64,000 nucleotides of DNA, from positions 155,913 to 219,912 of the forward strand of contig BEXV01000342.1 of the NCBI GenBank assembly GCA_003118195.1, read 5' to 3'. The notes beneath the pieces were generated by a model. It was given only the letters and a program-made list of their open reading frames with translations, ran no database searches and had not been told where the DNA came from. This stretch comes from Hemicentrotus pulcherrimus (taxonomy: Eukaryota > Echinodermata > Echinoidea > Camarodonta > Strongylocentrotidae). Positions 3,106 through 56,874 of this stretch are shown piece after piece (position 1 is the first letter of the stretch; the number at the start of each line of letters is the position of its first letter). The position numbers and the translations under genes are program-made.

Positions 3106-4687
3106 TGTACTGTTCGAAAGAAAGATCTTTTCTCTCATGGCTCTTTGTATTATGAGTAATGCATTTGTTGTCTACTGCCTCAGACTCGCCCTTCAAGGAG
3201 AAGTTTGGAAGTCCTTTCTCAATTTCCTCACAAGAACGCATTATAGCATCACTCGTACAGTGTTGCTCCACGGCTAAGGTGTCGGTCGGTACATCATTCC
3301 TGGGCCGAGGCCGCGGTAAAGAAATGTTGGTCAATAAAAGATTTTCTGTAGCATCATCACCATCTATTGTACTTGAAATAGTTCCAACATTACGTGTTAG
3401 CTTTACACGACGCCGGTAAAAACCTCGAATATTCATGAAACACATACAACTTCCCAACGAAAATGCTATTGTTGATACTACGGTCAACGAAACTATAAGT
3501 GATGTAGACGTATTTTGACTTTTGTTCGTGGTTGAATCTTTTAGCATCACAATACTCGTAGTGACTTGGTTTGGATTTGTCTCTTCTGAAGTCGTTGATT
3601 CGGAACAATTTCTTTTAACATTGACAAGGATACTTCGACATGGTTTGTCATTTGTTGAGTTGCTGAACGAATTTCTGTCTGAAACCGATATGGTATAAAA
3701 ACTACCCATTCCTGAATTCACACTTATGCCATAGAGTAGTATTGAGTTTGATATATTTTCCTCTCCCCCACAGATAAAAAGAAAGTGATCGAGACCAGTT
3801 ATAAATATGTCTTTCGTGAAATTGATGGGCATTAATTCATTATTCACTTTGTACCGCCATGTAAAGAAAATGTTTTTGTTCGCTGTGCAACATTGAAAAG
3901 TGACATTATCAGTTTTGCCATTTTGAATCGTGTATCGTTTTATAGGCGGGAACTTGCAAGTTTTTCCATCATCTCGTTTGTGATTCAAAATAACACATTT
4001 GTCTGGTAATGTTCTTCCATCAAATATGTCGCGGGGATCAATGTAAACACTGAATATGTTGGTGAGATTGAATCGACCGTCAACGTTTATGTTTAGAGTG
4101 TTATGGGCATACATCACATAGTTTCCCCCATCTACAAGTTGTGCTTGCTCCTCTTCTATTACCTGCAGCCATTGACATGTCATCTGAATTTTCCTTTTTT
4201 CCTTGTTGAATATAGTCAAACAAGTAGGTTCTATAAATTCAACAGTCAAATTCAGTATCAAAACTGTACAGAGGATCTGTGCACCATTATACACTGAGAT
4301 TACATGTTTTCCCGTATCATTAATTTCGACGAAAGAAATTAATAAAGTAAGAGTGCCATTAGTATCCTCAATCAAATCATAACGCGTGACATCAAAAGAA
4401 ACGTTTCCTACATTGAACTCCAGAGTGCAATTGTGTCGCTTTTCCCATGTTGACTCTCCCTTGGTCCATAAAAGTGATTGAGTATTTAGAAGTTGAGTCT
4501 GGAGAAGAGGTATCATCAGCGAAACATTTTGTCCATTCACCACATGAATTGATTTACTCAGGTCCTGTAGTTCATGGCCATTGCACCCCAATACATGATC
4601 CTCACAAAATGAAGATTGGTAAAAAGATTGCAAAAGCAGAAAGAAAAATGACGCCTGTCTGAATTCGAGGAAGCCTGTCAGAGACAT
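3106..4687 (-). CDS. Subfamily 1 Ig-like transmembrane receptor (C-terminus in gap)
   Basis: Single-exon receptor. I start it at the ATG at 4687 because the next residues (MSLTGF) match the 10952 paralogue; an in-frame ATG at 4738 gives 17 extra, less plausible residues. Visible in order: a hydrophobic signal peptide; Ig-like module 1 (NGQNVSL ... LLWTKG ... NDTGKHV ... LCTVLILNLTV); Ig-like module 2 with the Cys pair MTCQW ... DKCVIL; module 3 (VTFQCC ... FTWRYK); a Ser/Thr/Asn-rich stalk with many N-x-S/T sequons; a membrane span (TSLIVSLTVVSTIAFSLG); a basic stop-transfer YRRRVK; and the proximal tail up to SFEQ, where the assembly gap begins. The frame is open throughout the visible part. 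The gene heads a pair with the subfamily 2 remnant upstream. Function as a signalling receptor is inferred from the paralogues; its own tail motifs cannot be seen. Confidence 0.8.
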
Positions 4688-4804
4688 TGTACCGGATTTA
4701 ATGGAAACGCTGTTTAATGAAATGCAGCCAGCAGGCATGAAGTCAAAAGAGAGAACAAGTGTAGAAGGAATGACGAAATTCTGATATGAAGCCAGCTAGA
4801 TTTG

Positions 4805-5225: not shown

Positions 5226-6194
5226 TTACTGCGTTATTGCTTTAAAGAAAACAAATTTGTCCATGCTATGCACAATCACATTTGAGTTATTATCCTCTTC
5301 TCCGTAAAAGAAAACGATGTGATGAATATTAGACAAAGTAATATTTTGTGTAAATTCGTGAGGTAGCGCTTCTCCATCATCACTGTACCACCACGTAGCA
5401 GAACTATGCTCACTTGGGACGCAACGATTAAATACATACTGATCTGTTTGTTTGTTCCCAATCGTATGTTGCACCACTGATGAAAAATGACACGTCTTGT
5501 TAACATTTTCATGTCTATGAAAGACTAAACACTCGAAGGAAAACTCATCCCCCGTCAGTAAGTTTTCAATTGTCACATAACGCTAAACGTGTTTATTTCC
5601 CTGTAGACACAACCTAAGTTGCTTATTCCAGTCTCCTCCTTGGATAATACCCCTTTTCTGGCTACAATCTCTGTGTAGTCTCCTTTGTCAACCTGCATCC
5701 AGCGACAAGTCATCTCTACCTTACCCATCGATTTGGAAAGAAAAGTAGTGCACACGGGTTGTGTGTTCTAAATTTTTAAAGTCAAACGAAAAGCAAGACA
5801 AACTGATCGAAACTCGTCGTAAATGTCAAAGGTGTGAGTCCCTGAATCATTTTCTTCTTCGATTTCTATAGATTATTTCAAACGTGTTGTTATCGATTCC
5901 TTTAAACAATTTATAACGTCCATTGCTGATATTGCGAATGAAATCATGACTGGAACTTTGATATATCCCGATTAAAACATTCCCATCTTTCACCCACTGA
6001 AGATATTGCGTCTCTTGCAACGTCTGTGTGACGCGAAATGTAAAGGAAACATTTTGGTCATTAATTCCGTTGAAAGTCTTATACTTGTACTCACAAATGT
6101 TTTCCGTAGAAAAAAACTGCTGATAGAAAACTTGGAGAATGAGAAAAAGGAGAAAATAGTTCATGGTGAGGATAAGATCCTTTTTCGACAACAT
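5226..6194 (-). pseudogene. Subfamily 2 receptor pseudogene, ectodomain only
   Basis: Remnant of a paralogue of the 16827-18800 and 47165-49303 genes. From the ATG at 6194 (MLSKKD) it shows the signal peptide and module 1 up to NTFEI. There an extra A shifts the frame and gives a stop at 5847. Further pieces follow in other frames: module 2 (VEMTCRWMQVDKGDY ... INTFSV) at 5755-5573 and modules 2-3 (MTIENLL ... FECLVFH ... ATWWYSDDGE ... VIVHSMD) at 5576-5226. At least three frame disruptions are visible. After HSMD the homology stops abruptly and continues as the upstream flank of the neighbouring subfamily 1 gene, so the stalk, membrane span and tail are deleted. It cannot encode a membrane receptor. 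Confidence 0.85.
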
Positions 6195-8835: not shown

Positions 8836-10952
8836 TCAGAATGATGAGTGCCCCGATTCATTCATATACAGTATACCATCACAGTTCATTTCATCAGTGG
8901 GGATCGCGACGCTGTTACTATAAATCTGACTGTTATTCATGCCTTGATGCGAAGCGGTCCTATAGAAGTCATCACCAGGAACTCTCGGATCATCATAATC
9001 CGATTCCAAAGCAGCAGTTCTCTTGGTTTTTCGACTCATATCGGGTTTTGCGTAGAGCTCGTCAACATTTTTTGTGGGACCAGACCTGTTTGCCATCGAA
9101 TCGTGCCTTCCATCTTTTCGTTCTACCGCACACGGTCTCTTATCCCTAATGACATTGTACAGATTGGAGCAATCTGTTTGTCCATCACTTGGGTGAGGTG
9201 ACGACCGGAAGGACATCGGGGATACTATCCCGGTGTTGGAAGGATTATCTTTGACATCATCCAAAGAACAGTATGTACTGTCTTGAAACGGTGCGCTTGG
9301 GACGACTACAGTAGGTCTTGCGCCTCCAATCTGAATGCTATCTGCAGTACATGTGGAATCGCACCCGATCTCGCGCAGGGTCTGTTCGAAAGAAAGATCT
9401 TTTCCCTCATATTTGTTTTTAGTATAAGTAATGCATTTGTTGTCCACTGCTTCAGAATCGCCATGGAAGGAAAAGCTTGGAAGTCCACTCTGAATTTCCT
9501 GACAAGAACGCATGATAGCACTGCCCGTAGGATGTTGCTCTCTGACTGAAGTTTCAGTTGGTATATCATTCCTGGGCCGAGCAGAAGAAATATTGGTCAG
9601 TTCAAGAGATTCCGTAGCTTCATCACCAGCCGCAGTGCTTGAAATAATTCCAAAATGTCGCGATGGTTGAACGCGACGCCAGTAAAAACCGCGAATGATA
9701 ACGAAGCACATACATATTGTCAAAGAAAATGCTATTGCTGATACTACGGTTAACGGAACAGTAAGTGATTTAGACGTATTTTGGATTTCTTTTGTGGTTA
9801 AATCTGTAAGCATAAGATCATTCGAAGTGACTTGGGTTGGATTTGTTTTTTCTGAAAGGGTTGATTTGGAAATACTTCTTATAACATTGACATGGAGAGT
9901 CTGACATGATTTGTTATCTGTTGAGTTGGTTAGCGGATTTCTGTCTGAAACCCATGTGGTATAAATGTTGTTTCCGAAGTCCAAACTTCCAACGCCATAG
10001 ATTAGTGACGGGTATGAGTTATTCTTCTCTTCAGCACAAACATATAGGATGCGTTCGGAAGCAAGTATGAAATTTTCTTCCATGAAATGTAGGGATATGA
10101 AATCGCCATCAGCTTTGTACCACCATGTTAAGTAAAAGCTTTTGTTTGCTGTGCAACATTGAGATGTTTCATTCTTGGATTTGAAATCTTGAATCGTGTA
10201 TCGTTCTACAGGTGGAAAATTGCAAGTTTTTTCCTCATATCGTTCGGATGTGAAATGACACATTTGACCGGCAAGGTTCTTCCATCAAATATGTCTCGGG
10301 GATCGATGTAAACACTGAATTTGTTTGTAAGATTGAGTCGACCGTCAAAATTCATGTTAAGAGTCTCTTGGGCATAGAGCACCTGATCTCTCGCATCTTC
10401 AAGATGTACTTGTTCCTCTTCTATCACCTGCAGCCATTGGCAAGTCATCTGTAATTTGTTCCTATCATTGTCAAAAAAAGTCAAACAAGTGGGCTCTAAA
10501 GATTCAACGATCAAATTTAGTATCACTACTGTACAAAGGATCTGTGTACCTTTATGTATTGAGATGACATGTTTCCCCATATCATTACTTTCGACGAAAG
10601 AAATGAATAGAGTGAATGTGCCATTAGTATCCTCAATCAAATCATAACGTGTGACATCAAAAGAAACGTTTCCTCCAGTGAACTCCAGAGTGCAATTGTG
10701 TCGCTTTTCCCATTTTGAATCTTCCTTGGTCCAAACTAGTGATTGAGTACTTTGTATTGGGGCATGGAGAGGAGGTAACATCAGTGAAAAATTCCGTCCG
10801 TTTACTACGTGAATTGATTTACTCAGCTCCGGTAGTCCATACATATTGCATCTTAATCCATGATCCTCACTAAATGAGCCTTGGTAATGAGATTGCAAAA
10901 GCAGAAATAACCATAGCGCCTTTTTAAAATCGGGGAAGCCTGTTAGAGACAT
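8836..10952 (-). pseudogene. Subfamily 1 Ig-like receptor with a single frameshift
   Basis: Near-complete single-exon receptor from the ATG at 10952 (MSLTGF) to the stop at 8836-8838. The first frame covers the signal peptide, module 1 and most of module 2 and ends at 10206. The second frame resumes at about 10263 and carries module 3, stalk, membrane span (SLTVPLTVVSAIAFSLTICMCF) and a full tail. Aligned with the 3106-4687 paralogue, one base is missing between about 10230 and 10262, just after the module 2 Cys (VKCVIS). The tail keeps every family motif: STYCSLDDV, LYNVI, ELYAKPDMSRKTK, SDYDDP, DFYRTA, QIYSNS and ILYMNES. A single lesion in an otherwise clean gene means either a very recent pseudogene, a null allele or an assembly error. 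Confidence 0.8.
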
Positions 10953-12789: not shown

Positions 12790-14820
12790 TCAGTGGGGAT
12801 CGCTATAAATCTGACTCATGCTTAGATGCGAGGCGGTCCTGTAGAAGTCGTCACCAGGAACCCTTGGATCGTCATAATCCGATTCCAAAGCAACAGTTCT
12901 CTTGGTTTTTCGACTCAAATCGGGTTTGGCGTAGAGCTCGTCAATATTTCTTGTCGGACCTGACCTGTTTGCCATCGAATCGTGCCCTCGATCCTTTCGT
13001 TCTTCCGATAATGCACACTGTCTCTTATCCCTAATGACATTGTACGGAGCTGAATGATCTCTTTGTCCATCACACGACGATTGAAAGGTCACTGAGGATT
13101 CTATACCGGTGTTGGAAGGAGTGTCTTTGACATCATTCAAAGAACAATATGTACTGTCTTGGAACGGTGCACCTGGGACGACTACAGTAGGTGGTGCGCC
13201 TCCAATTTGAATGCTATCTGCAATACCTGTAGAACAGCGCTCTGTCTTGTGTAGACGCTGGTCTAAATTCCAATTCTTCACCTCATTATGCTCATGATTG
13301 TCTCTAATATGAGCAATGGATCTGTTGTCCATTTGTCCAATTTCTCCTTGAACGTAGCTGTGAGGTCCATGTTGACTTTCCTGACACGCATGTATAATAG
13401 CATTACCCGTTCCATGCTGCTCCTCAACTATGGTGTCACGTGGTACGTCTCTCCTGGGTTGAGACCGTGCAGAGAAAATATTGATCAGTTCAAGAGATTC
13501 CGTAGCGTCATCACCGGCCGCTGGGCTGGAATTGATTTCAACATTGAGTTTTTGCTTCATGCGACGCCGGTAAAAACCTCGAATATTGATGAAGCACATA
13601 CGAATTGTCAACGAAAATGCTATTACTGATACTATGGTCAAAGGAATGATCAGTGAAGTTGACTTATTTGAATCTGTTGGCGTCATATAACTCGTATTGA
13701 CCTGAGTTGGGTGTGTTTCTTCCGAAATCATTAACAAGGAAGTATTTCTTGAAACATTCACACTGATAGTTTGACATTGCTCGCCATCTGTTGAGTTGCT
13801 TGAAGGATTTTTAACTGAAACCGATGCCGTATAAAAACCGCATTTTCCCACATCCAAACTTCCCATGCTATAGAGTAGCATTGAGTTTGATCTCTTGTTC
13901 TCTTCCCCGCAGAGAAAAAGAATGCATTCGGGACCAGTTATCGACATGTCTTCCGTAAAATTGATAGGTATAATATCATCATCAACTTTGTTGCACCATG
14001 TAAAGGAAATGTTTTGTTTTTCTGTGCAACATTTAAAAGTTACATTCTCGGTTTTGTCATTTTGAATCGTGTGATGCTTTAAAGACGGGAACTTGCAATT
14101 TTTTTCCAAATTTCGTTTGTGATTCAAAATAACACATTTATCTGGAAGTTTTCTTTCATCAAATATGTCTTCGGGATCAACATCAACGCTGAATTTGTTG
14201 GTGAGATTGAATCGACCGTCAACGTTTATTTTTAGATTCTCATGGGCAAAAATTATACGATTTCTCGCGTCTACAAGTTGTGCTTGCTCCCCTTCTATCA
14301 CCTGTACCCATTGACAAGTCATTTGTATTTTGTTCCTTTCCTTGTCGAACATAGCCAAACAATTGGGCTCTATAGATTCAACGGTCAAATTCAGTATCAA
14401 AACTGTACATAGGGTCCGTGCACCATCATATACCGAGATGACATGTTTCCCCATATCATTACCCTCGACGTAAGAAATGAATAGAGTGAATGTGCCATTA
14501 GTATCCTCAAACAAATCATAACGTGTGACATCAAAAGAAACATTTCCTCCAGTGAACTCCAAAGTGCAATTGTGTCGCTTTTCCCACCTTGACTCTCCCT
14601 TGATCCACACCAGTGAATGAGTACTTTGTATTGTAGTCTGGAGATAGGGTAACATCAGCGAAAAATTTCGTCCGTTCAACACGTGAAGTGATTTCTCCGG
14701 GCCCAGTTGTCCATTACAACCCCATCTAATAAACTCACAAAATGAGGATTGGTAAAAAGATTGCAGAAGAAGAAAAAACCATAGGGTCTTTCTGAAGTCG
14801 GGGAAGACAGTCCTAGACAT
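12790..14820 (-). CDS. Subfamily 1 Ig-like transmembrane receptor, tail clipped by 11-base deletion
   Basis: Open frame of 676 codons. Residues 1-29 form a signal peptide. Ig-like module 1 covers about 36-148 (NGRNFSL, LVWIKG, NDMGKHV, LCTVLILNLTV); module 2 about 152-240 (MTCQW ... DKCVIL); module 3 about 241-355 (VTFKCC, FTWCNK, FLCGEE). A stalk is followed by the membrane span at about 388-411 and RRR. The span contains Arg407 where paralogues have Cys or Ser. Tail tyrosines: Y558 in STYCSL (ITIM consensus), Y593 in YNVI, Y630 in LYAKP, Y649 in SDYDDP, Y660 in DFYRTA, Y672 in QIYSDPH. Relative to the 8836 paralogue 11 bases are lost just after QIY, so the protein ends at DPH and lacks the terminal YxN motif. 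It may still be functional. It forms a pair with the subfamily 2 gene upstream. Confidence 0.85.
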   Translation of the reverse strand: MSRTVFPDFRKTLWFFLLLQSFYQSSFCEFIRWGCNGQLGPEKSLHVLNGRNFSLMLPYLQTTIQSTHSLVWIKGESRWEKRHNCTLEFTGGNVSFDVTRYDLFEDTNGTFTLFISYVEGNDMGKHVISVYDGARTLCTVLILNLTVESIEPNCLAMFDKERNKIQMTCQWVQVIEGEQAQLVDARNRIIFAHENLKINVDGRFNLTNKFSVDVDPEDIFDERKLPDKCVILNHKRNLEKNCKFPSLKHHTIQNDKTENVTFKCCTEKQNISFTWCNKVDDDIIPINFTEDMSITGPECILFLCGEENKRSNSMLLYSMGSLDVGKCGFYTASVSVKNPSSNSTDGEQCQTISVNVSRNTSLLMISEETHPTQVNTSYMTPTDSNKSTSLIIPLTIVSVIAFSLTIRMCFINIRGFYRRRMKQKLNVEINSSPAAGDDATESLELINIFSARSQPRRDVPRDTIVEEQHGTGNAIIHACQESQHGPHSYVQGEIGQMDNRSIAHIRDNHEHNEVKNWNLDQRLHKTERCSTGIADSIQIGGAPPTVVVPGAPFQDSTYCSLNDVKDTPSNTGIESSVTFQSSCDGQRDHSAPYNVIRDKRQCALSEERKDRGHDSMANRSGPTRNIDELYAKPDLSRKTKRTVALESDYDDPRVPGDDFYRTASHLSMSQIYSDPH

Positions 14821-14989: not shown

Positions 14990-16640
14990 CGAAATGCCTC
15001 ATAAAAAGCTATTTCCATTCCATCAAAAATCTTTGTGAAATATGAAGAAGCGAGAGTGATTAATTACAGCATTTTGATTGGCTGTACCAACGCAATCACA
15101 AGCGATAAATTATTGTTGCAACCCAGTATATATTGAAACGCATTATGTGAAGGCGGGGTCTCATTAATAATGTATCTTCCTTTAGTTATGATCATTAAAT
15201 GTCTTGAGTTTTTCCTATTATTACATCTCACTGATTTAACCACTTATCCATCATACCCAATTTGAAAGTACGGAATCGGTTTCCTAAAGCGTAAATTGTT
15301 AGTCTAAATTCAGACAGTATCTCTTTCAATGATAATCAACAAAATCGAACAGAAACAAAGATTAATCATTTATCTCGATTGATAATTAATCAGTACTTGT
15401 TATAAGTACCCTCCTATGCTGAAACCAAAACGTCAGATATCTATAATCAACTATCTTTTATCTATGAAAATGAAAATATTTAATCGAATGCAATCTTTTA
15501 TATTCAGCTTGTTTTACATGTTTAACCATCAAACAATTTCTTACCAAATCATTCTGATAATTTTATCATTTCCGTACGGATAAATAGTAAGGCATTTAAG
15601 ACAAAAACAAATCGTATGAAAAATATTTATTTTGCTCGGACATGGAATTCGCTAAAATTAGGATCAATTATATGCCAGGGTATAATTTTCACTACACATG
15701 ATACAGAGACCAAGAAAATTGTATTTGTATTCCCCCTTCATCTTATAAAATGAACATGCATGGAATATATGTCTAGGTATTACTAGTAGATGTAATACAA
15801 AAGTATGAATAAAGGGAATAGATACAGGATACGATATCATAATTTTAATATTACAAAGCATAAACTATGATCATATAAATATCTGACATTGTCAGATGAA
15901 CGAAAGTTTTTAGATTGAATTCGTTAAAGACTTTCGAGTTTTTTTTAAATCACGAACGATTCCCACACTGACCACATTATTACAAAGCGACGTATATATA
16001 TATATATAATATAATTTTTCCCTATCTTTTGAACTCCTGGAGGATTCTCAAGTGGAACCTACTAAGATTCTTGACGGAAGTAACACCCGACAGTTAATGC
16101 ACTATACAGAACTAATAAGAAAGTGTACATTCATTTTCGCCGTCATCCTGATAGAATGAATAAAAACAAAGAAATAGTTAATTAATGTCAAGTTCGCCCC
16201 AAATCCAGGCACCAAGATACAAAAGTATTTGCCCTCATTGTTATCTATACTATTTTCACGAAATAGTTTAAAGGTTTAAAGGCCAAACAATTAATAGTTA
16301 AATTCTAACGGCATTTTAAAGATATTACCAATTTAGAAATTCCCTCAAAACAAAAGGGCTTGAAAACTTTTGAAATTCACAATGGTGGCTTTACACTGTT
16401 GATCTTCTCTTGAATTGTTAAAATGTCTTGTGTCTGCAACACGTACCAACAATATTTAACTTTCGTATTGTGGGTGTTTCCGTAGATCAACAGTTTCAAT
16501 ATTATGGATAATAACCATTGAAGGGTCTTACTCCGCATTGCAGAGGAAGAAGCAGAAGAAAAACATTTATCCACGTAGCCCTTCACTGTCATTGATTATC
16601 TCGGCTACCAGAAAAAAAAATCACATAGTTTACAAAGCGT
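14990..16640 (-). other. Intergenic region between the 12790 and 16827 genes
   Basis: No gene. The right-hand gene's 3' flank and the left-hand gene's upstream flank meet here. It matches 45545-47160, the equivalent interval between the 45056 and 47165 genes, including the CTCCTATGCTGAAAC block (15409 and 45888). This shows that the subfamily 1 and 2 genes were duplicated as a pair. A short TA run lies near 15990-16013. Confidence 0.6.
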
Positions 16641-16826
16641 CTTCTACAGGGAATTCATGATTAAGATTGAGAATACTCGCACTGTTACCGTAGAAAGGAC
16701 CAACGAGGATATTTGAGTCTACATCATTTTCTGCAACACGATTTGTTTGATTCGTTGCTATCCTCAGATTCCCCAGTCGTCATCCACAGGAGCTCTACCA
16801 CCTTGGCCTTGCTGCTTGGTAACACC
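16640..16826 (-). pseudogene. Decayed C-terminal coding remnant of the 16827-18800 gene
   Basis: Directly after the TGA at 16827-16829 the sequence still aligns with the last 60-odd codons of the 47165-49303 paralogue (GVTKQ, then VAENDV, then the IFSNSASILNL equivalent). It has a one-base deletion near 16775 and reads TTG TAA where the paralogue has the VYVN motif. These additional lesions indicate that the sequence after the stop is no longer under selection. Confidence 0.75.
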
Positions 16827-18800
16827 TCAGGATGCTGCAGAGTGATGGATCTTCCTGGTCTTTCGGCTCATGTCAGGTTTGGCGTAAAGAACCTCCACGT
16901 CTACCATCGGTTTGACCGATACATGAGTTAGTGTAACAGGTGATAGAAACCCTTCACTAATACTTGATGGACTCTTAGAATTCTTTTGGCCACTGAATCG
17001 GAGGGTCTGTTGCATGGGTGTCGATGGTGACGGCAGATCTTCCATCTCAGTTTTAGAGGTGGCGCCATCGACATCATCCAGAGAACTATACGTGATTTCC
17101 AGAGATGGCTCACTTCCAACGACTGTACTTGGAGCGTGTGTCTTGAGACTCACTTCGTCATTGTGAGTAGTTCCTCCCAAGTGTTCGTTGATGCGTCCAG
17201 ACGTCCCAAGAAGTTCTGCAGAGGCAGAGTTAACATGGCTACAGTTGTTTGTGAGATGTGAAGTAGAGTTGCCCTCGTTCTTTACCATTGACTGAGAGGC
17301 AGGAAGGCTTGACTCACTGCGCCGACCGGAATGCAAGGAATCAAACTGCGGATCTTCAATAAGTGACCTGCCTACTGGTGGCTGATTTGATACAGCACCA
17401 TGGGGTAGAGAAGCTTCATCGGGTTGAGTTGTAGGGGTAAAAATACTCTCCATTTCCATGGATTCCGTGTTATCGTCACCTACTGCAGTCAATAAACTTC
17501 CTCGAAGACCCAAGGTCCTATATTTTTCTCGAAATATGCCATACAGTTTTGTAAAACAAATACCGATAATAAATCCAAGTGCCGTTGCTACTCCAAGCAC
17601 TGGGACCCAAAGATTTGTTTTACCGTCGAATATATATTTCATTGAATATGTTCCTTGTGTTGTTGACAATTTTGTAAACGAAGTACTGGGCCTACTAGAA
17701 GTAGAAGTAGAAATCGTTGTTAAAGCTGATACGAAGACGGTCAGAGTGAGATTGTTGCATTCCAGATTATCTTGTGAATGTGCTTGCCATAGCTTATTGT
17801 TGCTAGCTGATTCCGCAAGAAACGAAACGTGGCTATACCGGTAGTCCAATAAATTTAATATGTCCATGCTATGTAGGATTACATTTGAGTTATCATCCTT
17901 TTCACCGTAAAGGAAGAATATATGATTAATGTTAGACAATGTATAATTTTGTGTAAATTCTAGAGGTAGCACTTCTCCATCAACACTGTACCACCACGTA
18001 GGGGATATTGTCTCACTTGGGATGCAACGCTCAAATACGAACTGCTCGGTTTGTTTGTTCCGAATAGCGTGTTGCATCATGGATGGAAAATCACATGTCT
18101 TATTCACATTGAAGTGTCCATGAAAAACTAAGCATTTGAAGGGCAATTCATTTCCAGCCAGTAAATTTTCCATTGTCACATAAACGCTGAAGGTATTAGT
18201 TATTTCCTTGTAGATATTACCCAAATAATTCCTTCCAGTCTCCTCCCTTGATACTACACTTTCTCTAGATACAATCTCTGCGTAGTCTCCTTTATCAACC
18301 TGGATCCATCGACAAGACAACTCTACCTTAACCGTTGTATGGTAAAGAAGAGCAATACACTTAGGGTCCGTGTTAAAAATTCTTAAGTTCAAATTGAACG
18401 CTGTACAAACTGATTGAAACCCGTCGTAAATGTTAATGATGTGAGTTCCTGAATCCTTTTCTTGTGCGAATTTTATAGACATTACAAACGTGTTGTCTTC
18501 GAACCCTTCAACCAACGTATGAAGTTCGTTACTCACATTGCTTATGAAGCCATGACTGGAACTGTGGTATATTCCAATTAAAACATTTCGATCGGTTGTC
18601 CACCGAAGATCTTGCGTTTTTAGCAATGACTGTGCGACACGAAATGTAACGGAAACGCTTTGTTCGTTTATTCCGTAGAAATTTTGATATTGGTAATTCA
18701 CACAAACCTCCGTAGAAACAGGCTGCTGGCAGAAATCTTGCAGAATGAAAAGAAGTAGAAATGGTTTCATGGTTAGAATAAAGTCCTTTTTAGACAACAT
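16827..18800 (-). CDS. Subfamily 2 Ig-like transmembrane receptor with premature stop in tail
   Basis: Open frame of 657 codons from MLSKKD at 18800; an internal ATG (residue 11, MKPFLLL) is an alternative start directly before the hydrophobic signal stretch. Module 1 about 33-142 (YGINEQSVSV, LRWTTD, EKDSGTHI, VCTAFNLNL), module 2 about 147-238 (ELSCRW ... FKCLVF), module 3 about 239-350 (FVFERC, TWWYSVDG, LSNINHIFFLYGE). A Ser/Thr-rich stalk covers about 358-390 and the membrane span about 396-418. Tail: GDDNTESMEM near 441-450, Y571 in ITYSSLDDV (ITIM consensus), Y639 in LYAKPDMSRKTR. The paralogue at 47165 has AGA (Arg) where this gene has the TGA stop, so about 64 residues, including the terminal YVN motif, are lost. 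A shortened but membrane-anchored receptor is plausible. Confidence 0.85.
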   Translation of the reverse strand: MLSKKDFILTMKPFLLLFILQDFCQQPVSTEVCVNYQYQNFYGINEQSVSVTFRVAQSLLKTQDLRWTTDRNVLIGIYHSSSHGFISNVSNELHTLVEGFEDNTFVMSIKFAQEKDSGTHIINIYDGFQSVCTAFNLNLRIFNTDPKCIALLYHTTVKVELSCRWIQVDKGDYAEIVSRESVVSREETGRNYLGNIYKEITNTFSVYVTMENLLAGNELPFKCLVFHGHFNVNKTCDFPSMMQHAIRNKQTEQFVFERCIPSETISPTWWYSVDGEVLPLEFTQNYTLSNINHIFFLYGEKDDNSNVILHSMDILNLLDYRYSHVSFLAESASNNKLWQAHSQDNLECNNLTLTVFVSALTTISTSTSSRPSTSFTKLSTTQGTYSMKYIFDGKTNLWVPVLGVATALGFIIGICFTKLYGIFREKYRTLGLRGSLLTAVGDDNTESMEMESIFTPTTQPDEASLPHGAVSNQPPVGRSLIEDPQFDSLHSGRRSESSLPASQSMVKNEGNSTSHLTNNCSHVNSASAELLGTSGRINEHLGGTTHNDEVSLKTHAPSTVVGSEPSLEITYSSLDDVDGATSKTEMEDLPSPSTPMQQTLRFSGQKNSKSPSSISEGFLSPVTLTHVSVKPMVDVEVLYAKPDMSRKTRKIHHSAAS

Positions 18801-30693: not shown

Positions 30694-30699
30694 AAATCT

Positions 30700-41580: not shown

Positions 41581-43019
41581 TTATATTCCTACTACAGCTA
41601 CGCTTTGAAAGGATACACATCTTCTTAGATACGACATACATTGTGTTTAGAATGAAAGAATGTAACAGTACCTTCCATTGGATGTACCTTTGCCTACTCC
41701 ATATCTTGGTCTTTCACATATAACTTTCGCCTGAACAAATGTCTGGTCTCAATCAAATTACCGTCGAATATATATGGATGGAGAGTATTGCAAACTCTGT
41801 CAAACTCTAGATACATAGATGATAATGGAATATAAAAGCTTGTGAAGGTTAACACATTAGGGATGTTTGATTAAAACCAATTCACAGTACACTGGAATAG
41901 TACAACAGATGAGCACGATATCGATGCAAACGAACGTGGAATGCAAACAAAAAGGCGTCTGGTAGAAATCGCCTCGTGTTGAGCAAGCAACCCACCCATT
42001 TTGTGTCTTTCATTCATAACGAATAATAATTTTCAAACTAGGCGATTCACAATGTGAGAAACAATCACTTTCCTTTTATTTGATTGAATTTATTATTGTA
42101 TGTCACACTCAACACAAAATGGATGATGAAAGATGGCATGAAAGATGGCATGAAAGATGCCCACGCAACATATCTGACCATGAAACCAAAAGGTTTATTT
42201 CACATTCATCGTTTTTGTTCTGGCACAAGCATAATAATTTTACTTCACGATCTCCTTATCTAAATACAGATGATTTATTGATTTAAACAAAAATCGTGTT
42301 CATTAATTGTTCATGTACACGATGAAGCATTGTAATGTTCTTTAAACATCTATCAATTCCCTATCCCGTCAGAAAATCCCAAGGTAAGAGTTTTTAAACA
42401 ATCGCCATTGGTCATTAAGTTTTCTTTGAGTATAGAAAGTAATCAATTGCTTTATGTTTTATGGTAGATCTATCGAGCCTTAGTGTAGGTTCAAAGGAAT
42501 CAAATCAAAGCTATTATACCAGGAAATGAGCATTTAAATGAGTCAGTAAGAAAGACGATGGGTCGTGGATGTCACGAATATATCGTTTAAAAACTGATCA
42601 CGTGATTCCCCCACACATCCTTATTTACCCTATATGTTTATTTGAAGGGTCTTGGATGTCATTTCTCTCCAGAATTCTGATAATGCATAATGCATACATA
42701 ATGAATCAGGTATAATCTGTAATTTGTATTTACGTATGTGTTTATTTATATACATACATTTATCAACATTTCCAAGGTTACCCCCCCCCCAAAAAAAGCA
42801 TGGCAATTCATTTATTTGAATAAGCACGGGGGCCTGCCTCAGTCTGAGGACTGTTCGTGCATAGAGCCGTGCATACAGTTTTGTTGCATTTCATTTCATG
42901 CACACGAATCTCAATTTTTTTCCTTTTTATTAAAGATAACATCCCATGACATCCATTATCATATATTATAGACACTGCACATATGATACTACATTTAATT
43001 TATTCCATATTGCCTCTTT

Positions 43020-43262
43020 CTAGCCCTCTTTCTTTAGCATTGACCAAGAGATAGGAGAGCTTGAGTGACTGCGTCGAGCGGAATGCAGGAAATTCAACTG
43101 GGATCATCGATTGGTGACCTGTCTACTAGTCTCTGATTTTGGATGGGGTATAGAAGCTTCACCGGGTTGAGATGTTTGGTTCAAAACAGTCGTCATTTCA
43201 GGGGATTCCGTGTTATCTACACATACTGCAGTCTTTAAACTCCTTTGAAGAATCAACGTCTT
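43020..43262 (-). pseudogene. Subfamily 2 receptor tail relic
   Basis: The minus strand encodes fragments of the proximal tail of subfamily 2 receptors: DNTESPEMTT, TQTSQPGEAS-type sequence and, out of frame, the SRSMV-like stretch. It aligns with residues about 433-490 of the 47165 gene. Immediately upstream, the sequence changes to the 5' flank of a subfamily 2 gene (43275 onwards matches 49490-49640). The promoter-proximal part, ectodomain and membrane span are thus deleted. A matching relic lies at 61600-61855, so the deletion predates the block duplication. Confidence 0.8.
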
Positions 43263-45055
43263 AAAATTTTTATATTTTATATTACAGCTTGACAATCAAA
43301 TTTCAAGTGATTACTTTCATTGTTGTGAATAATTATGTTGAAGCATTATCTGCTTGAGGTGTGAAGAGCTGCAATAAACGAACCACTTTAGTATATTTTG
43401 AAATAAAACCCAATGTATTAGCTTATTTTTACATTGAGTATATATACTGAATAGTCATGGTTTCAGTTTTTAAGCTCTTGAGGAATTAATTTGTCACATT
43501 TCTGTTTTCCTTTATCGGCAGCCAGCCAGTCACTAGTGAACACTTTCCTTTTAATAGTATAATTTACATTAAAAGACATCTTTTTGAGGCGTCAAAACTA
43601 CGAGGAAAGGACGCGATTTTTATATTTCAAGTGGCTTACAGAGCTTACAAGATTATCTTAATCACTTACCACTGTACAAATTGTCTAATGTCTCTTATTG
43701 TACCCCGTGTATTGGTTTAAATATATATGTATATCGGGAAAATTTATTTAACATAATTTGTCTTAGCCTATTATTCGTTTCTTAAAACTACGCTTAATAT
43801 ATATCATAGCTGATTGTTAAAGCAACATGAAGAAATGATAGTTATAACAACCGGTGCAAACCATGCGATTGTGATTTCATTTAGAGTTCAGGTACATGAA
43901 TGGCGACAAATAAATGGTGTCGATTACAGAATATATTATACATCAAGTTCCTGAGTTCTTATCAAACGAGTTTTATTTGAAACTATTTCAGTTTTACTTC
44001 TTGTACACCAGCAATGGTTTATTTATGTTACCCACGCAATCTCAAGATATTGCTTAATACAATCATAATAGTGGCATAACATTTGTCATTTTTTATTGTC
44101 TGGTTTACCTTTTGACTAGAACATAGTAACACCGACACACTATGAACTGAATTAATTTCAAAACAAGATTAATTTTCCTCTTGTCTTTCTCCACATTTTA
44201 CACAGTATTGAACAGTTTGCAGAATTGAATTTCGACAATTGAGACACATCAAAATATCAATATCAAACATGGAATAAGGTTAAGAAGTACTGAGCTTTGG
44301 TGGGCTTGGCCTGAATGCTATACATACACGCAAATTATGCATAATGGAAATAAAATTAATTGAAAGGTGCAGGAGGTGATTTTTTTACATATGCTCAATA
44401 TTTAGTTCAATTAATTAATGGTGATGTTAGAGTTTAATGACACTTTTGGGCGCTGGGTGATCATTCTCGTTAGTCTAAAAATAAATAAAATACAAATCAC
44501 TGCAATATTTAATAATCTTGTGAAAAAATATACATATTTTCAATAGGAAAAAGAAAGATAGATAGATAGATAGGGAGAGGGAAAGATTAACTTATCACTA
44601 TTACTTCAGATCTGATTGTATTTTATAAATATTTAAATATCGTGGTTTAAGATAAACTTGAGTTCTGGTAATGCGATTGCATTGTGAAAGAAAAGGTGTG
44701 GAATGGATCAGAAAAGTTGATCATATAGCATGTAAGTAATGGTGTGTAATGCAAGGTTATGGAGTCATCAATCATCAATATCACCATAGATTTGGCAGAG
44801 TCTTGGTAAAGTAACAATCACTTACACAGAAAGATGTATATGGGACAACACACATGGTGTCGGGGCTAATACTATCCTGATTTCCTAATCTTTCTATGCT
44901 CATTACTCAGCCAGTATACATTTTCTTTCAAAATTGTTTGGCACATGACATTAATTTGTAATCTTGAACATTCAGTGTAAGTTTCGTTAGATTCTGTGAG
45001 AATTATTTTTTTTTTATTTTTTATTTTTCAACGAGAACTCAAGTTTATCTTTGAC
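43263..45055 (-). repeat. Subfamily 2 upstream flank joined to subfamily 1 3' flank
   Basis: No gene. 43275-43610 matches the subfamily 2 upstream flank (49490-49640 and 61870-62230). At ACGAGGAAAGGACGCGA (43600-43617) it switches to the subfamily 1 3' flank, matching 63060-63910 and 8050-8620. About 44640-45050 contains the extra segment also seen at 11300-11690. Confidence 0.7.
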
Positions 45056-45400
45056 TCAGAATGATGAATGATCCGATTCATTCATATACAGTATATCATC
45101 ACAGTTCATTTCATCAGTGGGGTTCGCGACGCTGTTACTATAAATCTGACTGTTATTCATGCCTGGATGCGAAGCGTTTCGATAAAAGTCAACACCAGGA
45201 ACCGTCGGATCATCATAATCCGATTCCAAAGCAGCTATTCTCTTAGGTTTCCTACTCATATCGGGTTTAACATAGAGCTCGTCAAAATTTCTTTTCAGGC
45301 CTTACCTGTTTGCCGCGGAATCTTGCCTTTCACCCTTTCGTTCTCCTGATAATGCACACGGTCTCTTATCCCTAAGCTTGTCAGAAACATCGTACCGAAT
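45056..45400 (-). pseudogene. Subfamily 1 receptor remnant: tail fused to start region
   Basis: The last 67 codons of the tail are intact and carry SDYDDP, DFYRNA, QIYSNS and ILYMNES before the stop at 45056-45058. Upstream, the tail aligns with paralogues to about 45375 (the DKR region). There it jumps directly to the start-codon region of a subfamily 1 gene (GTCAGAAACATCGTACC on the plus strand, compare 10940-10965). Some 1.7 kb covering the signal peptide, all Ig-like modules and the membrane span are deleted. It keeps a subfamily 1 promoter region and a TATAAA at 45535-45540, so a transcript with a tail fragment is conceivable, but no receptor. Confidence 0.85.
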
Positions 45401-45540: not shown

Positions 45541-45544
45541 TGTC

Positions 45545-47164
45545 ACGTAGATATGCCTCTAAATAGCATTTTCAATTTCATCTAAGATCTTCATGTAATA
45601 TGAAAAAGTGAGAGTGATTAATTAGTTTGACTGGCGAGGTCTCATTAATAACGTCTTGTCCTCTAGTTATGAATATTAATTATCTTTAGTCTTTCTTACG
45701 ATTGCATCTAAATGATACCATTACCACTTATCGAACAAACCCAAATAAAACAAAAAAACTATGGACTCGATTTCGTCAAGTGTAAAGTGTCAGTCTGAAT
45801 TGAATACAGTACGTCCTACAAGCAACATTTATAAAAACACATTAACTATTTTGTTTGATATTTGACTAGTACTTGTAATAAGAGCCCTCCCATGCTGAAA
45901 CTAAAACTGCAGATATCTCCAAGGTTGAGTATTGTGCAGCCGTCATTCATAGTTTACTGCGTTATTGCTTTATCTTTTATCTTTCAAGGTAACTTTTTTA
46001 ATCATGTTTTTATTCTGTGCCTTCGCACAATTATGTTAAAACATATTCAAAATAGAATGCAATCTTTCATATTCAGCTTGTTTAACATTGTTATAATGCC
46101 ATATATCCTATTTTAAATTAGCTTATGTATGGAGACACCTTCATCCTGCAACATTGAAATATACTTGGATGTCTCACGATTGTAAAAGTGGAAATCGTTG
46201 TAAAATTATTGTGGAATTAGTAAAAAATGAAATTAAATAGTTTTCACTCAAAATGCGGGTTCAAGCTAGGGTCAAATAAGGGAACTTTTGAAATTTAGAG
46301 TTCATTATAAGTTTATTGATTTTTCCGGAAAGAAGAAAACGAAACGCATTTTTTCTAATTTTGTCCGAACAAATATTATGACAATTAAGACAAGAAAATA
46401 CTTTTAAAAATAAATTGAATAGATATGTGATACAACGTATTACTGTACGTTAGATAGTAAAAAGGAAACAGTCATTTCACAATTTCACACGTTTTTTGTC
46501 TTAAACATTTAACAGGTTTTAAGCAGGATTCGAAAAAGATCCTCAAGTTTTCGTTAAAGCAACGATTATTCCGGCACTTACAATTTTTCCAAGATTGCAC
46601 CCCATAATTTCTATTATCCATTGTGATATATTTAATATACACTGCACATTATGATGCTATATTTACAATCTTTCACATTATCACCTCTCATGCCTGGTGT
46701 CTGCCGAACCCGTAAACGTAAGCCCTACTGTAAGAAAACACGAATGCTATGATGCTTACACCATGGGCTATGGTCGATACTACCAGTACTGATATGAACC
46801 ACGTTTCCAAGGCTACCGTTTTCTTGAAGATCCCTTCAAATTTTGATAAGGTATTAAGAGCAGTCATGAGTAGAGATACAGTTTTGGTAGATCACACTTT
46901 CTTTTTGGATGCCTTCCTGATTTTTAAGACGTCAGATAAAGACTTGTAGAATTCAATTCACCATGATGACTTTACACTGTTGATCTTCTTTTGAATTGTA
47001 TAAACTGTCTGCAACACGTAACAACAATATCATACTGTCGTGTTGTGAATGTTCGCGTAGATCAACATTTCCAATATTATGGAAAATGATCTGTACTGCG
47101 CACTGCAGAGGAAGAATCAGATGAAAAACATTTATTCATGGATTCATGTAGACATGGACTGTCT
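45545..47164 (-). other. Intergenic region between subfamily 1 remnant and subfamily 2 gene
   Basis: No gene. Colinear in parts with 14990-16640, the equivalent interval of the 12790/16827 pair, and its left part matches 4811-5225. 46960-47160 is the 3' untranslated region of the 47165 gene. Confidence 0.55.
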
Positions 47165-49303
47165 TTAATTATATTGGTCACCAGACGAATTTACATACAC
47201 AGCGTCTTCTCCAGCGGATTCATATTCAAGATTAAGAATGCTCGCACTGTTACTAAAGATAGGACCAACGAGGATATCTGAGCCTACATCATTTTCTGCA
47301 ACACGATTTGTCTGATTCATTGCTATCCTCAGATTTCCAAAGTCGTCACCAACAGGAGCATTGTCTCCTTGGTCGTGCTGCTTGGTAACACCTCTGGACG
47401 CTGTAGAGCGGTGGATCTCCCTGGTCTTTCGGCTCAGGTCAGGTTTGGCGTAAAGAGCCTCCACGTCTATAATCGGTTTGACCGCTACATCTTCCTGCGC
47501 ATAAGTTGGTGTAACAGGGGTCTCTTCATTGATACTGTATGGACCCTTACAATCCTTTTGGCCATTGAATCGGAGGGTCTGATGCATGGGTGTCGATGAC
47601 GACGCCTTCTCATTTATCGAGGTGGAGCCATCAATATCATCCAGAGAACAATAAGTGGTTTCCAGAGATGGCCCACTCCCAACGACTGTACTTGGAGCGT
47701 GTGTCTTGCGGCTCCCTTCACCATTGTGAGGAGTTCCTCCCGATTTTTCGTATATTCGTCCAGACTTACCGAGAACTCCTGAAGAGGCAAAGTTAGAACC
47801 GCTGCAGATGTTTGTGGGATGTGAAGTAGAGTTGCCCTCTTTCTTTACCATTGACCGAGAGGCGGGAAAGCTTGAATGACTGCGCCGATCGGAATGCAGT
47901 AAATCACACCGCGGATAATCAACTAATGGCTGATTTGAGACAGCCCGATCGGGTTGAGATGTTTGAGTCAAAGTAGTCGTCATGTCCAGGGTTTCCGTGT
48001 TATCTTCACCTACTACAGACGTTGAACTCCTTCGAAAACCCGAGGTCTCACATTTTAATCGACACATGCCATACAGTTTTGTAAAACAAATACCAATGAT
48101 GAATCCAAGTGCCGAGGCTACTCCGGTTATGGAGACCCAAGTTGTTGTCATGATGGTAAATATAGTTCTAGGTCTAGTGTAAGTGAAAGTGGAAGAAGTA
48201 GTAGAAGTAGAAGTAAAAGTAGAAAGTGTAAGAGCTGATACCTTGACGGTCACACTGAGATTGTTGCATTTCAGGTTTTCTGGTGAATGTGATTGCCGTT
48301 GCTGATCCTTGCTGTATTCCGCCTGAAACGAAACCTTGCTAAACCGGTAGTCCCATACATTTAGTATATCAATGTTATGCAGGATCGCATTTGAGTGATC
48401 ATTCTCCTCTCCGTAAAAGAAAACGATATTATAAATGTTAGACAATGTATAATTGTTTGTAAATTCGAGAGGTATCAAATTTTCATCAACACTGTACCAC
48501 CACGTAGAAATATGTTCACTTGGGATGCAAAGCTCAAATACGAACAGCTCGGTTTGTTTACTCCGAATCGTGCGTTGCATCACGGATGGAAAATCACATG
48601 TCTTATTTACATTCAACTGTTTGTGAAAAACTAAACATTTGAAAGAAAATTTATTTCCAGCCAGTAATTTTTTAATTGTCACATAAACGCTGAAAGTGTT
48701 TTTTATTTCTCTGTAATTAAGGCCCCAATCGTTCATTGCAGTCTCATCTTTGGATACTGCACGTTCTCCAGCTACAATCTCTGCGTAGTCTCCTTTATCA
48801 AACTGAACCCAGCGACAAGACATCTCTATCTTACCCCCTGTGTGGTAAAGAAGAGCATTACAAGTAGGGTCCGTGTTATGAATTCTCAAGTTCAAATCAA
48901 ACGCTGTACAAACTGATCGAAACCCGTCGTCAATGTAAATGGTGTGAAGCCCCGAATCATTTTCTTGTGCAAATTCTATAGATATTTCAAAAGTGATGTC
49001 ATCGAATGCTTTAACCAATGTATAACGTTCATCGCTGATACTGCTAATAAAATAATGACTGGAACTTTGGTATGTTCCAATCGAAGTACTCCCATCTTTT
49101 ATCCACCGAAGATTTTGAGTATTTTGCAATGACTGTGCGACACTAAATTGAATAGAAACACTTTGGTTGTTTACTCCGTTGAAAGCAATATATTGGTAAT
49201 TCACACAAACTTCCGCCGAAAAAGACTGCAGATAAAAAAAATGCAGAACGAAAAGGAGTAGAGATGGTTTCATGGTGAGAATAAAATCCTTATTCGACAA
49301 CAT
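47165..49303 (-). CDS. Subfamily 2 Ig-like transmembrane receptor, intact
   Basis: Open frame of 712 codons and the reference member of subfamily 2. M1 (MLSNKD) and M11 (MKPSLLL) are both possible starts. Signal peptide to about residue 30. Module 1 about 33-142 (NGVNNQSVSI, LRWIKDG, NDSGLHT, VCTAFDLNL), module 2 about 147-238 (EMSCRW ... FKCLVF), module 3 about 239-350 (LFVFELC, STWWYSVD, NIVFFYGEE). A Ser/Thr-rich, probably O-glycosylated stalk covers about 356-386 and the membrane span about 388-409. Tail: GEDNTETLDM (432-441), Y551 in TTYCSLDDI (T at -2, L at +3; ITIM/ITSM-like), Y618 in LYAKPDLSRKT (YxxP, Crk-type), IFSNSAS near 683 with Phe in place of the YSN tyrosine, Y703 in VYVNSS (YxN, Grb2-type). 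It lacks the SDYDDP motif of subfamilies 1 and 3. Likely a plasma-membrane signalling receptor; the ligand is unknown. Confidence 0.88.
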   Translation of the reverse strand: MLSNKDFILTMKPSLLLFVLHFFYLQSFSAEVCVNYQYIAFNGVNNQSVSIQFSVAQSLQNTQNLRWIKDGSTSIGTYQSSSHYFISSISDERYTLVKAFDDITFEISIEFAQENDSGLHTIYIDDGFRSVCTAFDLNLRIHNTDPTCNALLYHTGGKIEMSCRWVQFDKGDYAEIVAGERAVSKDETAMNDWGLNYREIKNTFSVYVTIKKLLAGNKFSFKCLVFHKQLNVNKTCDFPSVMQRTIRSKQTELFVFELCIPSEHISTWWYSVDENLIPLEFTNNYTLSNIYNIVFFYGEENDHSNAILHNIDILNVWDYRFSKVSFQAEYSKDQQRQSHSPENLKCNNLSVTVKVSALTLSTFTSTSTTSSTFTYTRPRTIFTIMTTTWVSITGVASALGFIIGICFTKLYGMCRLKCETSGFRRSSTSVVGEDNTETLDMTTTLTQTSQPDRAVSNQPLVDYPRCDLLHSDRRSHSSFPASRSMVKKEGNSTSHPTNICSGSNFASSGVLGKSGRIYEKSGGTPHNGEGSRKTHAPSTVVGSGPSLETTYCSLDDIDGSTSINEKASSSTPMHQTLRFNGQKDCKGPYSINEETPVTPTYAQEDVAVKPIIDVEALYAKPDLSRKTREIHRSTASRGVTKQHDQGDNAPVGDDFGNLRIAMNQTNRVAENDVGSDILVGPIFSNSASILNLEYESAGEDAVYVNSSGDQYN

Positions 49304-52545: not shown

Positions 52546-52550
52546 TGAAA

Positions 52551-54795: not shown

Positions 54796-56874
54796 TCAAA
54801 ACGTATTCATATACAAATCACCGCCATTTGTCGATTCATCGGTAGGACATGCGAGGCTGTTGTCGTAGGCATGGTAATTTTGGTCGGTGCTTAGGGCTCG
54901 TAGATGTAGGCCCTCCTCCGGAACGAGAATGCTTTGAAAGTAGTCATCTAAAGGAACCCTTGGGTCATCATAATCTGATTCCACAGATGCCAAGTTTTTG
55001 GTTTTTCGGCTCTTGTCGGGCTTCGCGTACAGTGCATCCAAGTTTGGAATTAGTGATTTTGTAGCCTTCAAGTCGTCTCTCGATGTCTTCTCTTGATCCG
55101 ACGACAGACGTGACCAGTTAATGCTGTGTGATTCATGGTTATGTGCACTCGAATGAATGCCTTCGATATCATCCATTGAACAATAAGTACTGTCTGGACA
55201 TGGTGTCTTGGCACTGGCCGTGCACGCATTTCGCTCACTTAGGACGACAGTGTCATGTTTCACCATTTTCCCTTGCAAAGGCATGTTTAGTGGTCCACCT
55301 AGCGGTCCAGAAATTGGCTGCATGGCACCTTGTCTAAGAAAAGGCTCTTCTTCGCCTGTCGGACGCCGGTTAAGTCCACCTCTCGGGGACCCGGGATCTG
55401 CAATTTGAGCTGGGAAGGTCATTGCTACAGCTCCTGCATTAGCGTCATCCGCTGCCGTTGAACCTCTCTGAGGACCATTCCCCATATCCCTTCTGACACG
55501 ATACTGGTCTTTGTGGGGGATATTGTACCTGTAATAACATTTCGTAATGCAAGCACCAACAACGCACCCAAGCACAATAGCTGCTATTGTAGCCACTGCA
55601 ATCACGATAGCTTGGTTTTCTGCCGTTATACCGCCTTGTTCTACTTGAGAACATGGAGAACTGCTTGGTACCGGTACCTGACTGTTGTCACATGTTTGGT
55701 CGATCACACTCTCTGGAGAGATTCCCTCCTGATTGTTTAACGTCGAATCAAGTCTTGTAAAATTCACCGTGATGACTTCACACTGCTCATCCTCTCTTGA
55801 ATTGTTATGGATAAGTTTTGGGTCTGCAACACGTAGGGATAACGTTAATCTTTCGTGTTCGGCGTATTCTCTAACATAAAAACTTGTCATGTTAAGAATA
55901 GTAATCTCTGACAGTGTTTCATTTAAACCACAGAGGAAAAGAAGAATAAAATTAGCGTCTCTTGCATTGCTTGTATAGTAATTCCTTTTAGAATCGACAG
56001 ATAATTCATTGCCATCACCGTCGAATACTAGTATGATCGGTTCGCTTGTCTTGGTGACGCAACATTGAATGTCCACTTTTTCATCGGGAATATATTCAAT
56101 ATGATGAAGTGTGATGACGGTGAATTCACACATTTCTCTCCCTCGTCTTTTCCTGTGAGAAACAATACACTTCTTAGGTACCGTGATTTTATTAAATATC
56201 TCATCAAGACCAAGGTATACGCTGAATTGATGCGTCATATCAAATGAACCGTTAAAATTCAGTTCTGGAATGTGATGTTCATACAGGATTTCGTTGTCTA
56301 TTTCAAAGTGGGCTCGATCCCCTTCGTTCATTTGCAGCCATTCACAAGACATCTGTAATTTTGTTCTTTCATTGTTGAGTTGTGTTAAACATATCGGTTC
56401 TGGAGTTACGACGGTTAAATTTAGCAGGAGAGCTAGGCAGAGTGGCTGGCTACCTTGATTAACTGTGACAACATGATGTCCTGAATCATTCTGCTGAGTG
56501 TATTCAATAAACAAATCAAAGGTATCGTTGCTGACTTCAGTCACTCTATAGTGATCAACTTCAGAATCTCCATAACCGTTGTAGTCTAAAGGTTGGTCGT
56601 GTGTTTTCACCCATATTGATTCACCCTTTCTCCACATCAACGTTTGAGCATGTAGCAATGGGTCTTTCAAATAAAATCTAATGGAAATATCCTGTCCACT
56701 CCAAACGTCCATCACTTCTTCTTGCACGTTGCCACACCAATATATCTTGTCATCAGACAAGGTGACGTGGAAAATAATAGGCAAAATAAGAAACGACAAA
56801 ATCATTCTCCAGGCAAAATTTAAATGTTGTGTAGACATTTTGAAAGAGTCCACAGTCAATAATGTCGATATCAA
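54796..56874 (-). CDS. Subfamily 3 Ig-like transmembrane receptor, intact
   Basis: Open frame of 692 codons and the only complete subfamily 3 member. In-frame ATGs at 56874 and 56838 (MSTQHL); the second places the signal peptide (WRMILSFLILPIIFHVTLS) nearest the N-terminus. Module 1 about 41-155 (YWCGN, SGQDISI, LMWRKG, NDSGHHV, LCLALLLNLTV), module 2 about 158-245 (MSCEWLQM ... KKCIVS), module 3 about 249-372 (VDIQCC, VFDGDGNELSVDS, LLFLCGLNE). Stalk with Ser/Pro/Cys, membrane span about 421-444. Tail: STAADDANAGAV near 472, Y564 in STYCSMDDI (Met at +3, so a weak ITIM), Y616 in LYAKPDKSRKTK, Y635 in SDYDDPRVP (canonical Crk-type YDxP), Y670 in AYDNS and Y688 in LYMNTF (both YxN). Probable cell-surface receptor recruiting SH2 adaptors. 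It is the best candidate for functional work together with the 47165 gene. Confidence 0.9.
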   Translation of the reverse strand: MISTLLTVDSFKMSTQHLNFAWRMILSFLILPIIFHVTLSDDKIYWCGNVQEEVMDVWSGQDISIRFYLKDPLLHAQTLMWRKGESIWVKTHDQPLDYNGYGDSEVDHYRVTEVSNDTFDLFIEYTQQNDSGHHVVTVNQGSQPLCLALLLNLTVVTPEPICLTQLNNERTKLQMSCEWLQMNEGDRAHFEIDNEILYEHHIPELNFNGSFDMTHQFSVYLGLDEIFNKITVPKKCIVSHRKRRGREMCEFTVITLHHIEYIPDEKVDIQCCVTKTSEPIILVFDGDGNELSVDSKRNYYTSNARDANFILLFLCGLNETLSEITILNMTSFYVREYAEHERLTLSLRVADPKLIHNNSREDEQCEVITVNFTRLDSTLNNQEGISPESVIDQTCDNSQVPVPSSSPCSQVEQGGITAENQAIVIAVATIAAIVLGCVVGACITKCYYRYNIPHKDQYRVRRDMGNGPQRGSTAADDANAGAVAMTFPAQIADPGSPRGGLNRRPTGEEEPFLRQGAMQPISGPLGGPLNMPLQGKMVKHDTVVLSERNACTASAKTPCPDSTYCSMDDIEGIHSSAHNHESHSINWSRLSSDQEKTSRDDLKATKSLIPNLDALYAKPDKSRKTKNLASVESDYDDPRVPLDDYFQSILVPEEGLHLRALSTDQNYHAYDNSLACPTDESTNGGDLYMNTF

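Follow-up and report, generated by a model that had tools for sequence, protein, structure and literature searches.

A tandem array of single-exon, putative immunoglobulin-type receptor genes and their remnants in the sea urchin Hemicentrotus pulcherrimus

What kind of gene family occupies the 64-kb window analysed here (positions 155,913 to 219,912 of contig BEXV01000342.1 of Hemicentrotus pulcherrimus; guanine-plus-cytosine content 29-39% per 4 kb, N gaps at 2444-3105 and 35196-36115), in which related frames of putative membrane receptors with immunoglobulin (Ig)-like ectodomains follow one another? It is well supported that a complete gene is one coding exon comprising a signal peptide, three cysteine-rich beta-domains, a stalk, one transmembrane segment (TM) and a long tail, and it is highly likely that the product is a receptor with a tyrosine-based tail. 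On balance, we favour the reading of the array as an echinoid cluster, evolving by birth and death, of type I membrane receptors encoded in the germline.

Extent of the array and the single coding exon

A tblastn search of the window with six of its own open reading frames (ORFs; E<=1e-4) revealed 16 related stretches between approximately 2.4 and 61.9 kb, all of them minus-strand frames (Table 1), with between-class E-values as low as 7e-69. Thus, the clustering of related genes and remnants on one strand reported in the initial annotation stands, although not its limits of 3106..56874, as a class-A tail fragment extends the array to ~61.9 kb. Its tandem paralogues are likewise borne out by the self-comparison (BLASTN, matches of at least 120 bp, E<=1e-8), where 52 of 52 off-diagonal matches, a few of them simple or tandem repeats, were direct and included intergenic DNA besides genes. 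The ectodomains, in turn, fall into five classes (A-E) instead of the three subfamilies initially distinguished.

Two multigene blocks are collinear (Table 1), with the class-B copies matching at 85% (36116-38324 vs 55528-57752). A further match, at 77%, links 16.4-19.0 kb, which holds a class-A gene and a class-B fragment downstream of it, to 47.0-49.5 kb. Such direct block matches may be read as unequal exchange of multigene blocks, and the expansion of the family by direct duplication of these blocks, with numerous pseudogenes within them, appears well supported.

In the three longest-preserved frames (47165-49303, 54796-56838 and 12790-14820) the signal peptide, ectodomain, membrane span and tail share one reading frame. 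When paralogues were compared over segments hand-picked from the self-BLASTN matches, gaps were multiples of three in 29 of the 31 cases in five coding comparisons, vs 5 of 86 in seven non-coding ones (Fisher P 5e-20), both non-triplet coding gaps falling in the pair C12790/C8836, which carries the known frame changes. Because one frame is kept across the compared domains, introns inside the receptor frames, including the introns between domains that we had considered, seem very unlikely, in agreement with the single-exon layout proposed earlier; a 5' leader (untranslated) exon is possible. The upstream DNA looks similar within classes, as judged by eye. With a single exon per gene, ectodomains could be exchanged only by recombination within coding DNA.

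The initial annotation had each unit encoding the whole layout. This holds for 47165-49303 and 54796-56838 and nearly so for 12790-14820, where approximately the last 20 codons, carrying the LYxN-type motif, are in another frame; all others have lesions or a gap or are pieces, seven of the 16 stretches being only partial. At least one lesion is found in the long copies 16827-18800 (class A), 8836-10952 (C), 28525-30.7k (E), 32107-34056 (D) and 35.2-37.4k (B). The tail length, by hydropathy, lies within the expected 240-270 residues for 54796 (249), 12790 (265) and the early-stopped 16827 (240), but reaches 302 for 47165. The class-C gene at 2393..4738 probably starts with the ATG at ~4687. At 45374 a class-C tail end adjoins a class-C 5' flank (45374-45972 vs 4671-5244, 82% match), and this junction marks an internal deletion.

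Table 1. Receptor genes, remnants and duplicated blocks in the window
Coordinates	Strand	Feature	Remarks
2393..4738	minus	class-C gene	open from signal peptide through TM into N gap 2444-3105
5253..6194	minus	class-A ectodomain pseudogene	frameshifts
8836..10952	minus	class-C gene	full tail; frameshift near 10230
12790..14820	minus	class-C receptor, 676 aa, nearly complete	tail 265 aa
16351..16545	minus	class-B domain-3 fragment	follows the class-A gene directly on its downstream side; same arrangement at 46.7-47.1k
16633..18800	minus	class-A receptor	stops early at 16827; some of the tail beyond lies in a different frame
28525..30699	minus	class-E gene	full tail; two in-frame stops in domain 1-2 region
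32107..34056	minus	class-D pseudogene	stop in ectodomain; TM and tail in other frames
35153..37411	minus	class-B gene	one in-frame stop; tail in or behind N gap 35196-36115
43023..43270	minus	class-A tail fragment	
45051..45376	minus	class-C remnant	tail end fused directly to class-C 5' flank
46721..47093	minus	class-B remnant	P0001-type short-tail membrane span
47165..49303	minus	complete class-A receptor, 712 aa	TM ~390-410, tail ~302 aa
52559..53527	minus	class-D ectodomain pseudogene	
54796..56838	minus	complete class-B receptor, 680 aa	signal peptide, three beta-domains, TM ~411-431, tail ~249 aa
61609..61867	minus	class-A tail fragment	beyond the range annotated earlier
30658..44407		multigene block, copy 1	class-A fragment, B and D genes; collinear direct matches to copy 2, 76-85%
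51935-63927		multigene block, copy 2	collinear direct counterpart of 30658..44407

Some further observations concern the blocks and the DNA between the genes. Non-coding identity along the block copies 30658-44407 and 51935-63927 is uneven, with ~81-83% in the vicinity of the D genes against 87-90% in the DNA upstream of the B genes, which may reflect gene conversion or repeated exchange. A 336-bp unit is present in two tandem copies (40499-41170, 99-100% identity) in the intergenic DNA of one block, and either arose by duplication very recently or is a join made in assembly. TAC/ACT trinucleotide arrays (59983-60173 and 41433-41570) occupy roughly matching places in both copies; GAT repeats have been reported at the edges of duplications in the sea urchin SpTransformer family (PMC5103432). 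Rfam gave nothing at gathering scores in the window.

Ectodomains, tails and relatives

In the predicted structure of the class-C ectodomain of 12790-14820, domains 1 and 2 form Ig beta-sandwiches arranged as an Ig V-C pair, the fold matches listed for the model being antibodies, while domain 3 (247-358) is all-beta and lies outside the region covered by these matches. Thus, of the three Ig-like modules claimed initially, the first two are upheld as Ig-like, and for the third the model gives only its all-beta character. It is well supported that domain 1 is V-like and lacks cysteines at the usual positions B and F; its only two conserved cysteines are close to its two ends. In domain 2, Cys169 and Cys229 lie within strands 164-172 and 228-233 and would form a disulfide bond. 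The CxW of domain 2 had suggested a class-I cytokine receptor, which was rejected, as the model shows an Ig V-C pair. Among the subthreshold hits is Receptor_2B4 of Pfam (17 vs 21 bits, E 0.0071), and sequence searches of PDB gave nothing significant, the profile match to 2B4 having E 1.2.

The tails were aligned with one representative per class plus the Strongylocentrotus purpuratus relative (six sequences), and 30 of the 283 columns were identical in at least five of the six, 20 of these 30 lying within eight residues of three tyrosines. The first island is YCS[L/V/M], followed by DD in most tails (YSSL in 16827, YWSL in P0007), and conforms to YxxL or YxxV in nine of the ten aligned tails, with YCSM in 54796. 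The second, LYAKPDxSRKT, is present with single changes in 10/10 tails; then come SDYDDPR, [Y/F]xN and, close to the C-terminus in tails reaching that far, [L/V]YxN. Hence the shared tail design noted earlier is retained as short tyrosine islands in common, the tails being otherwise dissimilar.

Protein searches yielded seven relatives (P0001-P0006 and P0008) and, in addition, P0007. As the best window stretch for each of the seven is 68-81% identical, they are presumably other paralogues or proteins of near species. The search for echinoderm relatives suggested in the initial annotation gave one S. purpuratus tail relative, P0007 (XP_011672742.1), whose C-terminal part matches the receptor tail in 82/263 columns (31%; pairwise E 8e-20). 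Its receptor-type tail is preceded by an integrase region (Pfam PF00665, PF17921, PF09337), and this join may be a gene-model artefact or real. A viral or prokaryotic origin was also considered and rejected: no relative was confirmed in viral contigs (class-B protein, profile) or prokaryotic contigs (profile), in scans using few short patterns.

P0001 has a class-B ectodomain and ends just past a different TM, and a relic of this TM is found at 46721-46810, so that class-B ectodomains can be followed by another type of membrane span and hardly any tail. Short-tailed forms thus exist. The membrane span of P0001, the one protein examined, contains a His but none of the residues Lys, Arg, Asp and Glu, so that the charged TM residue of paired activating/inhibitory receptor partners was not found in it.

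P0008 was compared with the class-D pseudogene in 30-residue steps. Identity per step is 17-40% over the end of domain 2 and domain 3, whereas it is 57-87% over the stalk, TM and proximal part of the tail, and 50-83% over the distal part, the change being located in the stalk. Either the ectodomain of P0008 would have been exchanged, or class-D ectodomains diverge much faster than tails; its position in the ectodomain tree, a flagged long-branch join, was not used. In P0008 the stalk, TM and tail of class D thus bear a very different ectodomain and, as far as this comparison indicates, separate evolution is possible for the parts that recognise and those that signal.

As to the origin of the single exon, as distinct from function, a spliced ancestor could have been retroposed to give a single-exon retrogene, later amplified as DNA. 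The lack of introns in all frames, the annotation of the S. purpuratus tail relative in one protein with an integrase, and a reverse-transcriptase ORF inside the array are consistent with such an event. However, the visible duplications are all direct and span intergenic DNA, unlike retroposition, and no spliced parent came to light, none having been sought; we regard this origin as rather doubtful. The reverse-transcriptase ORF is a LINE-type remnant, a 548-residue open frame at 20576-22219 on the minus strand (RVT_1 in Pfam, E 6.5e-27 on its 382-aa ATG part); for its protein, no relative was confirmed in viral contigs, scanned by few short patterns.

Proposed function and competing readings

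By analogy, the family most likely serves as a germline repertoire for recognition that signals through phosphotyrosine. Ligand binding would lead to phosphorylation of the tail by a Src-type kinase, whereupon the YCS[L/V/M] site may act as a site resembling an immunoreceptor tyrosine-based inhibitory (ITIM) or switch (ITSM) motif, LYAKPD and, where present, YDDP would, as YxxP sites, dock SH2 adaptors of the Crk/Nck type, and the YxN sites towards the tail end would be of the Grb2 type. The receptor could then be a multi-adaptor scaffold on blood cells, recognising microbes or self/non-self, and the short-tailed class-B forms could be non-signalling partners or decoys. A bolder proposal, which we put forward only tentatively and consider rather unlikely as a whole, is that echinoids hold an undescribed large single-exon Ig receptor family that swaps ectodomains over a common stalk, TM and multi-adaptor tail by intra-exon recombination, and joins ectodomains resembling those of natural killer (NK) receptors to a LAT-like scaffold (YxxL, YxxP, YxxP, YxN, YxN) in one polypeptide.

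The ratio of nonsynonymous to synonymous substitutions (dN/dS) over aligned codons was 0.73 (0.57-0.92) for the A pair (47165-49303 vs 16827-18800), 0.70 (0.52-0.97) for the B pair, 0.57 (0.45-0.74) for C12790/C3122 and 0.52 (0.32-0.90) for D. By region, class C shows 0.48-0.55 in the tail and 0.85-1.04 in domain 3. The conservation of tails claimed at the outset is therefore seen in class C and in the class-D/P0008 comparison, but not in the A pair, where the tail is 64% and the ectodomain 66% identical. The idea of a faster divergence of coding than of linked non-coding DNA was dropped, as the identity ranges overlap (77.5-88.7% in five coding pairs, 80.3-89.5% in seven non-coding pairs).

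A number of observations weigh against the recognition-repertoire reading. The immune or allorecognition role is a putative one, to which we incline with modest confidence. The majority of copies are broken. The dN/dS of C3122 against the 3' part of C8836, 0.77 (0.56-1.07), is not below 1, and strong constraint is seen neither in the A-pair tail (1.22, 0.76-2.05, with the A-pair ectodomain at 0.60) nor in the B-pair stalk and TM (1.27, 0.81-2.39). Tyrosine enrichment among the conserved tail columns is not significant (P 0.077), and the P of 3e-10 for tail conservation is only descriptive, because the windows were chosen after the columns were seen. Class A and P0008 lack SDYDDPR, classes A and E have Phe in place of the first YxN tyrosine, and the SH2 readings (ITIM-like YCS[L/V/M], Crk/Nck-type YxxP, Grb2-type YxN) are ones that we assume from general motifs. 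No Pfam Ig model reached its gathering score (best V-set 16.7 vs 26 bits), the best Ig E-value in 12 members was 0.0071, and the fold match is limited to domains 1-2 and generic for Ig V-C pairs, with a two-domain root-mean-square deviation of 9.8-14.4 A. Finally, fast ectodomain divergence in another species could yield the same step in P0008, the comparison beginning only near the end of domain 2.

If the family were one of non-immune adhesion or cell recognition (e.g. gamete, neural or epithelial) duplicated in tandem, the domain layout would be no surprise, as adhesion molecules too can pair an Ig ectodomain with a phosphotyrosine tail, and neither YxxP nor YxN sites are specific to immunity. 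The turnover with many pseudogenes and block duplication, as well as the stalk, TM and tail kept beneath a different ectodomain in P0008, weigh against this reading without being decisive, and we consider it unlikely. A mostly decaying graveyard, with one or two working receptors, many dead copies and no repertoire function, is improbable: only two of the 16 stretches are complete and one nearly so, with stops, frameshifts and deletions common, but indels preserve the frame, dN/dS is below 1 in A, B, C12790/C3122 and D, a number of lesions are single ones that may be errors of assembly (there being two N gaps), and the full-tail relatives P0003 and P0004 occur elsewhere.

Relation to known receptor systems

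In the CD2 family, the first domain is V-like without the B-F cysteine pair. The window family resembles the vertebrate CD2/SLAM receptors (2B4) in this feature, the matches to 2B4 being below cut-offs, but differs from them in having three domains, one exon, and YxxP and YxN islands. Membership in CD2/SLAM, in the Botryllus fester co-receptors (FcoR) or in charged-TM paired receptors is not supported by the features tested.

SpTransformer proteins (Sp185/333), to our knowledge, have no Ig domains. As described in the papers cited here and below, this sea urchin immune family has two exons, almost no pseudogenes and same-orientation segmental duplications (PMC5103432); the window family is similar in its growth by same-orientation duplication, whereas its genes are single-exon and pseudogenes are common. 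S. purpuratus also has transmembrane receptors with V-type Ig domains and IgV-IgC1 ectodomains (Hibino 2006, Rast 2006, cited in PMC3308324), with which the window family, similar by description in being transmembrane and having V-type Ig, may overlap. We found no description of a single-exon three-Ig echinoderm receptor family in the titles and opening lines of abstracts screened, although the 2006 sea urchin immune papers may contain one.

The FcoR of the Botryllus fuhc locus are clustered type I Ig-superfamily receptors, as in the window, with long tails carrying ITIM, hemITAM or Y-x-x-I/L/V (PMC12065747), the last being a core motif that the window tails also contain. Unlike the window genes, which are single-exon, FcoR have a sushi domain and alternative splicing (PMC12065747); no sushi model was among the 11 Pfam families listed for the 12 members at E<=1. 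In the cnidarian Hydractinia, activation (ITAM) and inhibitory motifs are reported for the Alr allorecognition complex (PMC12065747, PMC11999971), to which the window tails, likened by description only, add the YxxP and YxN islands. By analogy, the window family may be comparable in logic to both the FcoR and Alr receptors.

Graft reactions are described in sea urchins and sea stars (PMC2248247), and the window family is a candidate for the receptors behind them. If the immune role is true, the family would be an addition to the named expansions of TLR, NLR and SRCR (PMC3308324) and to SpTransformer among the immune expansions of this group, as well as a further invertebrate phosphotyrosine Ig-receptor repertoire, beside the Hydractinia and Botryllus systems.
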